DNA of 64,000 bases from Leptotrichia massiliensis (lineage in GTDB: Bacteria > Fusobacteriota > Fusobacteriia > Fusobacteriales > Leptotrichiaceae), in NCBI RefSeq assembly GCF_900104625.1, contig NZ_FNVZ01000005.1:1488001-1552000 (forward strand). The letters run 5' to 3'. Positions 39,621 to 45,321 of the stretch are shown here, piece after piece. How positions within the stretch are numbered: position 1 is the first letter of the stretch; each line of letters opens with the position of its first letter. The translations under genes were made by a program, and so were the position numbers. Under the pieces are notes generated by a model. It searched no databases. It worked only from the letters and a program-made list of their open reading frames with translations, and was not told where the DNA came from.

Positions 39621-39657
39621 AAAAATCACAGTTGAAAACATTGGCTGTGATTTTTTC
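39621..39657 (+). terminator. Terminator after secG
   Basis: AAAAATCACAG (39621-39631) pairs with CTGTGATTTTT (39645-39655). It separates secG from hicA. Confidence 0.85.
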
Positions 39658-39679
39658 TAAAAAAATTTTTTTAAAGTTA

Positions 39680-39708
39680 TTGACAATGTGTTGAATACGT
39701 GTTATAAT
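39680..39708 (+). promoter_or_regulatory. hicA promoter with operator half-site
   Basis: Consensus TTGACA (39680-39685), exactly 17 bp, consensus TATAAT (39703-39708). The spacer ends AATACGTGT, i.e. an ACGTGTT half-site (39697-39703) directly 5' of the -10 box, the same position as the full palindrome in the hicB-cas13a promoter. Confidence 0.8.
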
Positions 39709-39819
39709 GAATTTATAAGTTGAAAATGATTTTTTGTAAAACTTTTCGACTCTCCCTAATTTTCAAATACTTTCTATTAGAAGTTATTATTAACGTTATT
39801 TTAGAAGGGAATGATATTT

Positions 39820-40002
39820 ATGTCATATAGAAAAATCGAAAAAAGATTTAGAAAATTAGGTGGAAAAGTTGTACGTATAAAAGGAAGTCATTATCAATGG
39901 ATGATCCCAGGTGTAAAAGGTGTGGTCACAGTACCATATTCAAAAGATATACCTGTAGGAACATTAAAAAGTATTGAAAAACAAGTCGGGATTAAACTCT
40001 AG
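39820..40002 (+). CDS. hicA: HicA-type mRNA interferase toxin
   Basis: 60 aa from ATG 39820; AGAAGGGA is 9 bp upstream, whereas ATG 39811 abuts it. The HicA dsRBD-like pattern is complete: KLGGKVVRIKGSHYQWMIPG, with the catalytic His in GSHYQW, then VVTVPYSKDIPVGTLKSIEKQVGIKL (consensus TVP.H..KDI..GTL..I.KQ.G). HicA cleaves mRNA when free of HicB. Here the antitoxin is not adjacent: a CRISPR mini-array (40049-40210) lies between it and hicB (40430). The leader is about 105 nt and has two mutually exclusive hairpins. Confidence 0.9.
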   Translation: MSYRKIEKRFRKLGGKVVRIKGSHYQWMIPGVKGVVTVPYSKDIPVGTLKSIEKQVGIKL

Positions 40003-40030
40003 TCCCTTCTTGCTTTCATCAAAAATTATT

Positions 40031-40051
40031 ATCCCATAATTTGGATGGGAT
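40031..40051. promoter_or_regulatory. Leader-repeat inverted repeat, mini-array
   Basis: ATCCCAT (40031-40037) and ATGGGAT (40045-40051) are inverted, with a 7-nt loop; the right arm overlaps the first three bases of the first CRISPR repeat. The same arms occur at the main array. It may be the integration or processing signal. Confidence 0.6.
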
Positions 40052-40215
40052 TTAGAGCACCCCAAAAATGAAGGGGACTAAAACAAAAATATTTCTTATT
40101 ATGAACATCTTTAAATGATTTAGAGCACCTCAAAAATGAAGGGGACTAAAACTCAATTTTAATTATTTGTCCGGGATATATCGGATTTAGAGAACCCCAA
40201 AAGTAAGGAAAATTT
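40049..40215 (+). CRISPR. Type VI-A CRISPR mini-array between hicA and hicB
   Basis: Two good 36-nt repeats (40049-40084 and 40117-40152) begin GATTTAGAGCACC and end GGGGACTAAAAC; the second has a C-to-T change. A degenerate third repeat starts at 40184 (GATTTAGAGAACCCC) and decays by about 40210. Spacers are 40085-40116 (32 nt) and 40153-40183 (31 nt). It has the same orientation as cas13a and the main array but carries GC where the main array has GT in GAG[C/T]AC. No promoter fits in the 46 bp after hicA, so it is probably transcribed as the 3' part of hicA mRNA. Confidence 0.92.
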
Positions 40216-40296
40216 GTAATTAGGTAAGGAGTATTAAAAAAATGTAATTTTAAAAAAATTGAAGAAATTAAATGAAAAATTGTACAAGTAAAAAAG

Positions 40297-40369
40297 AATC
40301 ACTAACAATGAGTGATTAAGGAATAGAAAAATTTGAAAAAATTGTTTTATTTTAGCAGAGATGCTAAAA
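40297..40369 (+). other. Two hairpins upstream of hicB
   Basis: AATCACT/AGTGATT (40297-40303, 40311-40317) and TTTTAGCA-GAGA-TGCTAAAA (40350-40369) are perfect short hairpins between mini-array and hicB promoter. Neither is followed by a strong T-run, so neither is a sure terminator. No coding frame is seen in 40216-40385. Confidence 0.4.
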
Positions 40370-40385
40370 AATTTTATAAATATTT

Positions 40386-40414
40386 TTAAATACGTGTTTA
40401 ACACGTGATATAGA
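40386..40414 (+). promoter_or_regulatory. hicB-cas13a promoter with palindromic operator
   Basis: Weak TTAAAT (40386-40391) and TATAGA (40409-40414) are 17 bp apart. The spacer is almost filled by the perfect palindrome ACGTGTT-T-AACACGT (40392-40406). HicB-family antitoxins normally bind such palindromes through their C-terminal domain, so autoregulation of hicB and cas13a is inferred. Confidence 0.65.
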
Positions 40415-40429
40415 TTGGAGATAATTAAA

Positions 40430-40846
40430 ATGGATGTATTTTATCCAGCAGTGATAACTAAGGAAGATGGAATTTATTATAGTTGTCTTGTTGATTTTGA
40501 CAAGTTTGAAGATGGAAGTATAAATTATTATGCTACATTTGGAGATAATATGGAGAGAGCTGTTTCTAATTTAAGGGAAACATTGGGTTTGCATCTGGCT
40601 GATTTACTGGATGTAAGAAAAAATTTTCCTGAACCTTCAAGAGTAGAAGATATAAAATTGAAAGAAAATCAGTATTTGTATATTATTTCTGTTGATCCAG
40701 TGTATGAAGTGGCAAAAGTTACAAATGCACTTAAAAAGAAAACTTTAACAATTCCTGTTTGGTTAGATATATTGGCACAGGAAAAAAATCTGAATTTTTC
40801 ACAAATTTTACAAAAAGCATTGAAAAAAGAATTAGGTATTGAGTAG
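40430..40846 (+). CDS. hicB: HicB-type antitoxin
   Basis: 138 aa from ATG 40430 (TTGGAG 9 bp upstream). The N-terminal HicB domain is recognisable: MDVFYPAVITKEDGIYYSCLVDFDKF…YATFGDNMERAVSNLRETLGLHLADLL. The C-terminal ~40 residues (LTIPVWLDILAQEKNLNFSQILQKALKKELG) look like a ribbon-helix-helix DNA-binding domain. HicB neutralises HicA and represses its own promoter. It is separated from hicA by the mini-array and ends only 29 bp before cas13a, with no terminator between, so the two are probably co-transcribed. Confidence 0.88.
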   Translation: MDVFYPAVITKEDGIYYSCLVDFDKFEDGSINYYATFGDNMERAVSNLRETLGLHLADLLDVRKNFPEPSRVEDIKLKENQYLYIISVDPVYEVAKVTNALKKKTLTIPVWLDILAQEKNLNFSQILQKALKKELGIE

Positions 40847-40875
40847 TAAAGAAAATATTAGGAGGTTTTTTGTAT

Positions 40876-43800
40876 ATGAAAATCACAAAAATTGATGGAA
40901 TTTCACATAAAAAATATATTAAAGAAGGAAAATTGGTAAAAAGTACGAGTGAAGAAAATAAGACTGATGAAAGATTGTCAGAACTTTTAACTATAAGACT
41001 TGATACGTATATAAAAAATCCTGATAATGCAAGTGAAGAAGAAAATAGAATAAGAAGAGAAAATTTAAAAGAATTTTTTTCAAATAAAGTATTGTATTTA
41101 AAAGATGGTATTCTGTATTTAAAGGATAGGAGAGAAAAAAATCAATTACAGAATAAAAATTATTCTGAAGAAGATATTTCAGAATATGATTTAAAAAACA
41201 AAAATAATTTTTTGGTTTTAAAGAAAATACTGTTAAATGAAGATATAAATTCTGAAGAATTAGAAATATTTAGAAACGATTTTGAGAAAAAATTGGATAA
41301 GATAAATTCTTTAAAATATTCACTTGAAGAAAATAAAGCTAATTATCAAAAGATTAATGAAAATAATATAAAAAAAGTTGAAGGAAAAAGCAAAAGAAAC
41401 ATTTTTTACAATTATTACAAAGACTCAGCAAAACGTAATGATTATATAAATAATATACAAGAAGCATTTGATAAATTATACAAAAAAGAAGATATTGAGA
41501 ATTTATTTTTTTTAATAGAAAATTCAAAAAAACATGAAAAATATAAAATAAGGGAATGCTATCACAAAATAATTGGAAGAAAAAATGATAAAGAAAATTT
41601 TGCAACAATTATTTATGAAGAAATACAGAATGTAAATAATATGAAAGAATTAATTGAGAAAGTTCCAAATGTAAGCGAATTAAAAAAATCTCAAGTATTT
41701 TATAAATATTATTTGAATAAAGAGAAACTTAATGATGAAAATATAAAATATGTTTTTTGTCATTTTGTAGAAATTGAAATGAGTAAACTTCTGAAAAATT
41801 ATGTGTATAAAAAACCAAGTAATATAAGTAATGATAAAGTGAAAAGAATATTTGAATATCAGAGTTTAAAAAAATTAATAGAAAATAAATTACTAAATAA
41901 ATTGGATACTTATGTAAGAAATTGTGGAAAATACAGTTTTTATTTACAGGATGGAGAAATTGCGACAAGTGATTTTATTGTTGGGAATAGACAAAATGAA
42001 GCATTTTTACGAAATATAATTGGGGTTTCTTCTACTGCATATTTTTCATTGAGAAATATTCTTGAAACTGAAAATGAGAATGATATTACAGGAAGAATGA
42101 GAGGAAAGACTGTAAAAAATAATAAGGGCGAAGAAAAATATATTTCTGGAGAAATTGATAAATTATATGATAATAATAAACAAAATGAAGTGAAAAAAAA
42201 TTTAAAAATGTTCTATAGTTATGATTTTAATATGAATAGCAAAAAGGAAATTGAAGATTTTTTTTCAAATATTGATGAAGCTATTAGCAGTATTAGACAT
42301 GGGATTGTGCATTTTAATTTGGAATTAGAAGGGAAAGATATATTTACATTTAAAAATATAGTTCCTTCTCAAATTTCAAAAAAAATGTTTCACGATGAAA
42401 TAAATGAGAAAAAATTGAAATTGAAGATATTTAAGCAGTTAAATAGTGCAAATGTATTTAGATATTTGGAAAAATATAAAATATTAAATTATTTAAATAG
42501 AACACGATTTGAGTTTGTTAATAAAAATATTCCATTTGTTCCGTCATTTACAAAATTGTACAGCAGGATAGATGATTTAAAAAATAGTCTAGGTATTTAT
42601 TGGAAAACTCCGAAAACAAATGATGATAATAAAACTAAAGAAATTACAGATGCTCAGATATATCTTTTAAAAAATATTTATTATGGTGAATTTTTAAATT
42701 ATTTTATGAGCAATAATGGGAATTTTTTTGAGATAACCAAAGAAATAATTGAGTTAAATAAAAATGATAAAAGAAATTTAAAAACTGGATTTTATAAACT
42801 TCAAAAATTTGAAAATCTTCAAGAAAAAACTCCTAAAGAATATCTTGCAAATATACAAAGCCTTTATATGATTAATGCTGGAAATCAGGATGAAGAGGAA
42901 AAAGATACATATATTGACTTTATACAAAAAATATTTTTAAAAGGATTTATGACTTACTTAGCAAATAACGGAAGATTAAGCCTTATATATATTGGAAGCG
43001 ATGAAGAAACAAATACTTCTTTAGCAGAAAAAAAACAAGAGTTTGATAAATTCTTGAAAAAATATGAACAAAATAATAATATTGAAATTCCATATGAAAT
43101 AAATGAATTTGTAAGAGAGATAAAATTAGGAAAGATATTAAAATACACTGAAAGATTGAATATGTTTTATCTAATTCTAAAATTACTTAATCATAAAGAA
43201 TTGACTAATTTGAAAGGAAGTCTTGAAAAATATCAGAGTGCAAATAAAGAAGAGGCTTTTTCAGATCAACTTGAACTTATAAATCTTTTAAACTTAGATA
43301 ATAATAGAGTAACAGAAGATTTTGAATTAGAAGCGGATGAAATTGGGAAGTTTTTAGATTTTAATGGAAATAAGGTAAAAGATAATAAAGAATTGAAGAA
43401 ATTTGACACAAATAAAATATATTTTGATGGAGAAAATATTATAAAGCATAGAGCTTTTTATAATATAAAAAAATACGGGATGTTAAATTTACTTGAGAAA
43501 ATATCTGATGAGGCAAAGTACAAAATAAGTATTGAAGAATTAAAAAATTACAGTAAGAAAAAAAATGAAATAGAAGAAAATCATACAACCCAGGAAAATT
43601 TACATAGAAAATATGCAAGACCTAGAAAAGATGAAAAATTTACTGATGAAGATTATAAAAAATATGAGAAGGCAATCAGAAATATACAGCAATATACTCA
43701 TTTGAAAAATAAAGTTGAATTTAATGAATTAAATTTATTGCAAAGTTTACTATTAAGAATACTTCATAGGCTTGTAGGATATACTTCAATTTGGGAAAGG

Positions 43801-44382
43801 GATCTAAGATTTAGATTAAAAGGTGAATTTCCTGAAAATCAGTATATTGAAGAAATATTTAATTTTGATAATAGCAAGAATGTAAAATATAAAAATGGGC
43901 AGATTGTTGAAAAGTATATAAATTTTTATAAAGAATTATATAAAGACGATACAGAAAAAATAAGTATCTATTCTGATAAAAAAGTAAAAGAATTAAAAAA
44001 AGAGAAAAAAGATTTGTATATAAGAAATTATATAGCACATTTTAACTATATTCCGAATGCTGAAATTTCACTTTTAGAAATGTTGGAAAATCTAAGAAAA
44101 CTACTTTCTTATGACAGAAAACTTAAAAATGCAATTATGAAATCAATAGTGGATATATTGAAAGAATATGGTTTTGTGGTAACATTTAAGATAGAAAAGG
44201 ATAAAAAGATAAGAATAGAAAGTTTAAAATCAGAAGAAGTTGTACATTTGAAAAAACTGAAACTAAAAGATAATGATAAAAAGAAAGAACCGATAAAAAC
44301 CTATAGAAATTCAAAAGAATTGTGTAAACTTGTGAAAGTTATGTTTGAGTATAAAATGAAAGAAAAAAAATCTGAAAACTAA
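40876..44382 (+). CDS. cas13a: CRISPR RNA-guided RNase Cas13a (C2c2)
   Basis: 1168 aa from ATG 40876 (MKITKIDGISHKKY matches the known N-terminus; AGGAGG at 40860-40865; a TTG at 40870 is an unlikely start). Both HEPN nuclease motifs R-x4-H are intact: SSIRHGIVHF (Arg about 474, His about 479) and YIRNYIAHFN (about 1050 and 1055). The NTD/Helical-1 lobe that binds and processes crRNA is full length. Cas13a matures its own crRNAs and, on binding target RNA, cleaves target and bystander RNA. From memory the N-terminal part reads like L. wadei Cas13a and the Helical-2/linker part like L. buccalis Cas13a. No cas1/cas2 is nearby. Confidence 0.98.
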   Translation: MKITKIDGISHKKYIKEGKLVKSTSEENKTDERLSELLTIRLDTYIKNPDNASEEENRIRRENLKEFFSNKVLYLKDGILYLKDRREKNQLQNKNYSEEDISEYDLKNKNNFLVLKKILLNEDINSEELEIFRNDFEKKLDKINSLKYSLEENKANYQKINENNIKKVEGKSKRNIFYNYYKDSAKRNDYINNIQEAFDKLYKKEDIENLFFLIENSKKHEKYKIRECYHKIIGRKNDKENFATIIYEEIQNVNNMKELIEKVPNVSELKKSQVFYKYYLNKEKLNDENIKYVFCHFVEIEMSKLLKNYVYKKPSNISNDKVKRIFEYQSLKKLIENKLLNKLDTYVRNCGKYSFYLQDGEIATSDFIVGNRQNEAFLRNIIGVSSTAYFSLRNILETENENDITGRMRGKTVKNNKGEEKYISGEIDKLYDNNKQNEVKKNLKMFYSYDFNMNSKKEIEDFFSNIDEAISSIRHGIVHFNLELEGKDIFTFKNIVPSQISKKMFHDEINEKKLKLKIFKQLNSANVFRYLEKYKILNYLNRTRFEFVNKNIPFVPSFTKLYSRIDDLKNSLGIYWKTPKTNDDNKTKEITDAQIYLLKNIYYGEFLNYFMSNNGNFFEITKEIIELNKNDKRNLKTGFYKLQKFENLQEKTPKEYLANIQSLYMINAGNQDEEEKDTYIDFIQKIFLKGFMTYLANNGRLSLIYIGSDEETNTSLAEKKQEFDKFLKKYEQNNNIEIPYEINEFVREIKLGKILKYTERLNMFYLILKLLNHKELTNLKGSLEKYQSANKEEAFSDQLELINLLNLDNNRVTEDFELEADEIGKFLDFNGNKVKDNKELKKFDTNKIYFDGENIIKHRAFYNIKKYGMLNLLEKISDEAKYKISIEELKNYSKKKNEIEENHTTQENLHRKYARPRKDEKFTDEDYKKYEKAIRNIQQYTHLKNKVEFNELNLLQSLLLRILHRLVGYTSIWERDLRFRLKGEFPENQYIEEIFNFDNSKNVKYKNGQIVEKYINFYKELYKDDTEKISIYSDKKVKELKKEKKDLYIRNYIAHFNYIPNAEISLLEMLENLRKLLSYDRKLKNAIMKSIVDILKEYGFVVTFKIEKDKKIRIESLKSEEVVHLKKLKLKDNDKKKEPIKTYRNSKELCKLVKVMFEYKMKEKKSEN

Positions 44383-44484
44383 AAAATGTAAAGTAATTTA
44401 GTTCAAAAAAGAAAATCATATCCGGAGAAATAAGTATCAGAGAAAAAATCATAAGAAAAGAAGCAAAAATTTTGGAATATTAGT

Positions 44485-44512
44485 TTGCATTATCAAAAAA
44501 ATATGATAAAAT
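44485..44512 (+). promoter_or_regulatory. Promoter of the main CRISPR array
   Basis: TTGCAT (44485-44490), 16 bp, TAAAAT (44507-44512) with extended TG (44504-44505). It would give a leader of about 120 nt before the first repeat. Confidence 0.55.
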
Positions 44513-44537
44513 AAATTAACGGGGTAATCTAAATCGC

Positions 44538-44591
44538 TAGAGTGTGTCTGGAAACTATTAAAATACATTTAATTTTTTCAGACACACTCTA
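44538..44591. mobile_element. TA-flanked inverted-repeat remnant
   Basis: TAGAGTGTGTCTG (44538-44550) and CAGACACACTCTA (44579-44591) are perfect 13-bp inverted repeats around a 28-bp AT-rich core. The TA flanks suit an IS630/mariner-type target duplication, so it could be a minimal MITE or an internally deleted IS. A regulatory hairpin in the leader is the alternative. Confidence 0.45.
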
Positions 44592-44621
44592 AATAAACAA
44601 GTAAATAAAATATAAAATATT

Positions 44622-44641
44622 ATCCCATAATTCGATGGGAT
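44622..44641. promoter_or_regulatory. Leader-repeat inverted repeat, main array
   Basis: ATCCCAT (44622-44628) and ATGGGAT (44635-44641) flank a 6-nt loop; the right arm includes the first bases of repeat 1. The arms are identical to those at the mini-array while the loop differs by one base in length. Confidence 0.6.
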
Positions 44642-45013
44642 TTAGAGTACCCCAAAAATGAAGGGGACTAAAACAATAAGAACTAACATTATCAAAGGAC
44701 CTTAAGATTTAGAGTACCCCAAAAATGAAGGGGACTAAAACCCGAGAAAAATTTTTCTCTATTAAAATATTTTGATTTAGAGTACCCCAAAAATGAAGGG
44801 GACTAAAACTCAATATCTCTCTCCATGTAAGGAGCTAATTTGATTTAGAGTACCCCAAAAATGAAGGGGACTAAAACTCAACAACTCTACCATTATATTG
44901 TTTTATAATGATTTAGAGTACCCCAAAAATGAAGGGGACTAAAACACTAGGAATTCAATTTGACATCCTCGAGTCTTGATTTAGACTACCCCAAAAATGA
45001 AAAGTACTGAAAT
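44639..45013 (+). CRISPR. Type VI-A CRISPR array (five spacers)
   Basis: 36-nt repeats start at 44639, 44706, 44774, 44842 and 44910; they are identical (GATTTAGAGTACCCC … GGGGACTAAAAC) and predict the usual Cas13a stem CCCC/GGGG. A degenerate last repeat is at 44978-45013, fixing the array direction as rightward. Spacers: 44675-44705 (31 nt), 44742-44773, 44810-44841, 44878-44909 and 44946-44977 (32 nt each). The spacer at 44742 contains a perfect palindrome GAGAAAAATTTTTCTC. No spacer matched elsewhere in the window by eye. Confidence 0.98.
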
Positions 45014-45078
45014 ATATATAGGTTTCTAAATTTAATGTTGTCTAAGTTTGTTAACAAAATAAAAATATTGATTTTAAT

Positions 45079-45103
45079 AAAGAGCTTTACAGCTCTTTTT
45101 TGT
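45079..45103 (+). terminator. Terminator of the CRISPR locus
   Basis: AAAGAGCT (45079-45086), TTAC loop, AGCTCTTT (45091-45098), then TTTG. Confidence 0.85.
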
Positions 45104-45143
45104 TTAACTTTTCAATAAAAAATTTTTTAAATAAGTATTTTTC

Positions 45144-45166
45144 CCGTATTTAATACGTGCTAAAAT
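45144..45166 (+). promoter_or_regulatory. Third copy of the HicB-like operator with -10 box
   Basis: CCGTATT-T-AATACGT (45144-45158) matches the hicB-promoter palindrome with the same centre and is followed by GC-TAAAAT, a -10-like box at the same offset as in the hicA promoter. It lies beyond the terminator, about 155 bp before addB. Either it drives addB or it is a duplicated relic. Confidence 0.5.
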
Positions 45167-45321
45167 TGTTTTGTAATTTAGAAGTTGCACAATAAAAACA
45201 GATATAGAAGTTTATAAAAATTGATTTTTTAACTTTTTAGATGATTTTGGTATGCTTTTACAATTTTTTAGAAAAAATGTTATAATAATAATAAATCTTC
45301 AATTTAAGGAGAAAGAATATT

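Follow-up and report, generated by a model that had tools for sequence, protein, structure and literature searches.

HicB, the antitoxin of a HicAB pair, probably controls both hicA and hicB-cas13a in Leptotrichia massiliensis, the last of these genes encoding a type VI-A CRISPR effector. The DNA analysed was a 64,000-nucleotide stretch of contig NZ_FNVZ01000005.1 (positions 1,488,001 to 1,552,000; termed the window); the genome comprises 2.54 Mb on five contigs. What is new here is a 15-bp dyad common to the hicA promoter, the region upstream of hicB-cas13a and a promoter-like site behind the main CRISPR array. On the most likely reading of this locus, hicA and hicB-cas13a form a regulon under HicB control, an arrangement that joins two known kinds of system. 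The matching dyads suggest that the antitoxin sets the amount of Cas13a in at least two Leptotrichia species, the evidence for the regulon being drawn from two genomes.

The genes and arrays all lie in one direction, in the order tpiA, secG, hicA, a mini CRISPR array, hicB, cas13a, the main CRISPR array, a terminator, addB and addA. An earlier sequence-only reading of this DNA had described the hicA-array-hicB-cas13a-array order, and both the order and the coordinates proved correct to within a few bases. The features are listed below together with their state in a second Leptotrichia species, G001, which judging from its Cas13a sequence is probably L. buccalis C-1013-b.

39656 to 45255, plus strand: cassette, inferred extent, bounded by the terminator of secG and the native promoter of addB; edges approximate
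39680 to 39708, plus strand: P1, hicA promoter, TTGACA-17-TATAAT (12 of 12 consensus positions matched; position conserved in G001)
39686 to 39700, plus strand: P1 dyad, ATGTGTTGAATACGT, in the promoter spacer (one mismatch to the pattern)
39820 to 40002, plus strand: hicA, toxin mRNA interferase (PF07927, Pfam HicA_toxin, E 2e-16; 9svk_A, E 1e-33)
39988 to 40006, plus strand: hairpin at the hicA end, possible attenuator (terminator-like scan; sequence kept in G001)
40049 to 40218, plus strand: mini CRISPR array with two spacers; two of its repeats are intact and the third is degenerate (array scan; decayed in G001)
40352 to 40406, plus strand: P2, proposed hicB-cas13a promoter, TTAGCA-17-TATAAA (hexamers read by eye)
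40392 to 40406, plus strand: P2 dyad, ACGTGTTTAACACGT (perfect match; the only such site in the genome)
40430 to 40846, plus strand: hicB, antitoxin with a C-terminal ribbon-helix-helix-like end (9svk_B, E 2e-82; 5yrz, E 4e-11)
40876 to 44382, plus strand: cas13a, type VI-A effector of the LbuCas13a lineage (NF038188, E 1e-191; 5xwy and 5xwp over the full length)
44639 to 45013, plus strand: main CRISPR array with five spacers; five repeats followed by a degenerate final copy (array scan)
45079 to 45106, plus strand: terminator 3′ of the main array (terminator-like scan; similar hairpin with a T-run in G001)
45138 to 45166, plus strand: P3, promoter-like site behind the main array, with a dyad within it; reads towards addB
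45144 to 45158, plus strand: P3 dyad, CCGTATTTAATACGT (one mismatch here)

The gene order of G001 was identical, as was the site between secG and addB, and its proteins exhibited identities of 95 to 97% for HicA, 91% for HicB and 84 to 85% for Cas13a. This repetition in a second species of order, site and 84 to 98% protein identity indicates that the arrangement is beyond chance. Comparison with G001 gave dN/dS values of about 0.17 to 0.24 for hicA, hicB and cas13a, indicating that all three genes are kept by purifying selection. In five other Leptotrichia genomes (G003, G004, G008, G009 and G010), secG is located directly before addB without the cassette and only about 125 to 540 bp separate the two genes; these empty sites indicate that the block from ~39656 to 45255 behaves as a single insertable cassette. 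Neither an integrase nor a transposase was seen within it. The secG-addB gap, compared in G002, G003, G004 and G008, is variable across the genus: it is empty, contains an unrelated 400 to 500 bp or, in G002, has the end of a transposase-like gene before addB.

The relationship between the toxin and the antitoxin was assessed by comparison with known structures. The Pfam match of HicB was weak (PF15919, E 1e-4, below the cut-off), and its predicted fold agrees with HicB structures. A near-identical HicA-HicB pair has already been studied by others: PDB entry 9svk contains four HicA and eight HicB chains that are close but not identical to the proteins of either genome. As both proteins match chains of this one solved entry, HicA and HicB are probably cognate partners, even though 427 bp separate their genes. 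The joint presence of both proteins of the near-identical pair in 9svk is consistent with a complex. The locus resembles other HicAB systems with a ribbon-helix-helix-type HicB (S. pneumoniae 5yrz; PDB 9svk) in having a HicA with the conserved GSH motif, hicA before hicB, an N-terminal HicB fold, a ribbon-helix-helix-like end and palindromic operator-like promoter sites, but differs in having a second operator-like site before hicB and cas13a after it. Furthermore, those HicAB pairs inspected elsewhere in the genus are adjacent, whereas here a CRISPR array, or its remains, lies between hicA and hicB.

An alternative in-frame ATG is present upstream of hicA at 39811. The hairpin 3′ of hicA could attenuate read-through, and the stretch from 39980 to 40090, which spans this hairpin, had an RNA fold z of −3.0. 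In both species, near-complementarity exists between the end of hicA (39998 to 40009, TAGTCCCTTC) and the CRISPR repeat (GAAGGGGACTA). A conserved upstream block containing an operator-like site belongs to hicB itself, suggesting that hicB need not rely on the hicA transcript. HicB is the only recognizable DNA-binding regulator encoded within the cassette. Relatives of HicB on plasmids and phages were all under 60% identical; the closest one found outside Leptotrichia was from Fusobacterium phage phiFN37 (47% identical, L059:2001-2435), with no annotated HicA beside it. No Cas13a was detected on plasmids and no close relative of HicB or Cas13a on viral contigs. Spacer targets were also sought: phage records yielded no convincing match (best E 0.3), and four spacers had no exact 22-mer in viral contigs.

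The placing of hicB 29 bp before cas13a without a terminator, as described in the sequence-only reading, was borne out by the sequence and by a terminator-like scan. These 29 bp, from the hicB stop to the cas13a start, contain AGGAGG and no terminator-like hairpin, and the two genes look like one operon. Downstream, the main array has repeats at 44639, 44706, 44774, 44842 and 44910 and a degenerate copy at 44978; other VI-A loci in the genus have repeats of this type too. The region between cas13a and this array contains a 12-bp perfect inverted repeat (44539 to 44590, AGAGTGTGTCTG...CAGACACACTCT) that is absent in G001 and resembles a small insertion. A hairpin is present at the array leader end; the leader-repeat hairpin of type VI systems has been reported as not enriched for VI-A (PMC13187072). 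An Rfam search gave no match.

The 15-bp dyad pattern, ACGTRTTNAAYACGT, was derived by comparing the sequences upstream of hicB in the two species. The hicB-proximal dyad of this genome (ACGTGTTTAACACGT) is replaced by ACGTATTCAATACGT in G001, both arms having changed in step. At P1 and P3 the dyad is located exactly between the −35 and −10 hexamers, while the P2 hexamers would place it just downstream of the transcription start. The dyads are locus specific, as all matches with at most one mismatch fell inside the cassette (three of three in the window's genome and two of two in G001). Both G001 sites, before hicB and behind the array, are perfect, the latter lying inside TTTACT-17-TATAAT and being stronger than P3 of this genome. 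The hicA promoter dyad, by comparison, is imperfect in both species, with two mismatches in G001. The G001 counterpart of the P3 region (45138 to 45321) then has a possible 38-codon frame. Among 11 cassette-free genomes of the genus, nine scattered one-mismatch sites were detected in about 26 Mb; at this background rate, the probability of two further sites within 5.6 kb is about 2e-6, only P1 and P3 counting as independent tests because the P2 sites had served to define the pattern. A generic, less specific shuffle test of dyad clustering was not significant.

The two ACGT ends of the dyad are 11 bp apart, or about one helical turn, a spacing that would suit a pair of ribbon-helix-helix dimers. 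Palindromic operators, as expected of a HicAB system, are predicted from the dyads at P1 and P2 in two species. We infer that the dyads are putative HicB operators through which HicB would repress hicA and hicB-cas13a; P3 may extend this control to the neighboring addBA genes. The earlier suggestion that the level of Cas13a is coupled to toxin state gained support from the apparent hicB-cas13a operon and the occurrence of one cassette in two species, with the shared dyads as a candidate route.

The sequence-only reading had named the occurrence of cas13a without hicAB as a finding that would speak against its proposal; other Cas13a loci were compared. A second cas13a in the same genome, whose product is 53% identical, is accompanied by cas1 and cas2, and its arrays are built from another repeat variant (G000:C4:398573-405252); the repeats of the cassette and this locus differ at 3 of 26 positions. 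More repeats of this variant were present at G000:C5:1068454-1068750, with no Cas13a match there. In a wider survey, one contig scan gave no Cas13a locus and another added two distant ones, and a scan of 389 relatives for Cas13a added one weak match. The hicAB form was present in 2 of 7 Cas13a loci and only in the lineage without cas1-cas2. Cas13a did occur without hicAB at the other five loci, but the four with complete surroundings (the second locus of this genome and those of G004, G011 and G017) are of a different kind: hicAB was absent from the surrounding 17 to 20 kb, and cas1 and cas2 were present (4 of 5 other loci). The fifth, on a G020 contig of <5 kb, had no hicAB or cas1-cas2 on that contig. 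The cassette resembles type VI-A loci of the LbuCas13a lineage in its Cas13a, the kind of repeat and the downstream array. VI-A loci are usually described as cas13a and an array, sometimes with cas1-cas2 (PMC12669027), whereas the cassette includes hicAB and has no cas1-cas2, which is optional in VI-A. New spacers may come from Cas1-Cas2 of the other locus, although the repeats of the two loci are not the same.

The sequence-only reading had taken the mini-array to matter to the interweaving of the two systems, a view that the comparison with G001 did not sustain. Repeats are present at 40049 and 40117, with a degenerate third at ~40184, and the G001 counterpart is one truncated, decayed repeat. 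The mini-array shares a leader-end element with the main array but has its own spacers, none of which matched the hicA transcript region above shuffles. The best reading of the mini-array is a second array in decay rather than a toxin guide. A toxin gene, a degenerate mini-array and a CRISPR effector do adjoin within one locus, as in CreTA (PMC9458426, PMC8501985), and a guide RNA from the mini-array could in principle let Cas13a or its crRNA silence hicA, such that loss of Cas13a would free the toxin. This explanation was rejected as very improbable given the lack of a hicA match and the decay of the array in G001. The cassette also differs from CreTA in having a protein antitoxin as well as a protein toxin, and in CreTA as described, type I effectors repress the transcription of a toxin that is itself an RNA; an RNA-cutting Cas13a and a protein-coding toxin gene argue against repression of that type.

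Two other explanations retain the HicAB pair and assign it less influence over cas13a. A stabilizing role, which is compatible with the same anatomy, would make hicAB an addiction module that holds the cassette in the chromosome, HicB controlling its own genes and cas13a being a downstream passenger; cas13a would be kept because a cell losing the block would be left with persisting HicA and no antitoxin. Addiction is a known toxin-antitoxin role, part of the cassette is bracketed by hicA and hicB, and the cassette occurs in two species and is missing at the same site in five genomes. The genes are chromosomal, however, in a cassette in which no mobility gene was seen, and control of cas13a would still be compatible with addiction since hicB and cas13a share a promoter region. 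We regard this explanation, with cas13a as a passenger kept through addiction, as rather unlikely. The pair and the CRISPR locus might instead be ordinary neighbors that landed in one variable gap, the dyads serving only HicB autoregulation or another regulator. This would agree with the other inserts found in the secG-addB gap of several genomes and with the five other Cas13a loci lacking hicAB. Against it, the conserved order, the 29-bp gap, the missing terminator and the operator-like block that the two species have kept upstream of hicB make co-transcription hard to avoid, and mere proximity appears improbable.

In the preferred reading, HicB control of hicA and hicB-cas13a, the HicAB pair and a type VI-A effector that lacks cas1-cas2 would constitute a compact defence cassette run by the antitoxin as one regulon, with the ribbon-helix-helix end of HicB binding the dyad at P1 (hicA), P2 (hicB-cas13a) and P3 (behind the array). 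HicB autorepression via palindromic operators and its release by excess HicA are known (PMC10865869); applied here, this logic would place hicA under P1 and hicB with cas13a under P2. In E. coli, a repressed promoter yields HicB but no HicA; P2 would be similar, with the difference that Cas13a would be co-produced. Plentiful HicB would neutralize HicA and keep hicA, hicB and cas13a low, while a drop in HicB, or free HicA stripping HicB from the DNA, would open P2 and yield more HicB and Cas13a. As activated Cas13a cleaves tRNAs and halts translation, HicB, if short-lived, could not be replenished and HicA would be freed, deepening the shutdown. Target-activated Cas13a is known to cleave tRNAs and indirectly to activate toxin-antitoxin RNases in E. 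coli (PMC11042736), an effect that a built-in HicAB could make a direct feed-forward. This step, from Cas13a through HicB loss to HicA release, is put forward tentatively. It is likewise possible, although less likely than not, that HicB is a dedicated transcription switch for Cas13a, its loss during phage attack or Cas13a-driven translation arrest inducing Cas13a and freeing HicA, with two RNases producing a self-reinforcing shutdown.

A search of the open literature, which included few subscription journals or preprints, found no paper joining HicAB with Cas13a in Leptotrichia, and HicA and HicB are unmentioned in a 2025 review of links between toxin-antitoxin and CRISPR systems (PMC12737573). 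Few Cas13 enzymes are used as much as LbuCas13a, yet the open papers searched appear to contain no description of how its native locus is regulated. Should HicB control Cas13a, a toxin-antitoxin pair would be linked to an RNA-targeting CRISPR effector through a protein, unlike in CreTA, which is RNA-based, and how Cas13a dormancy is triggered, reinforced and reversed would become testable.
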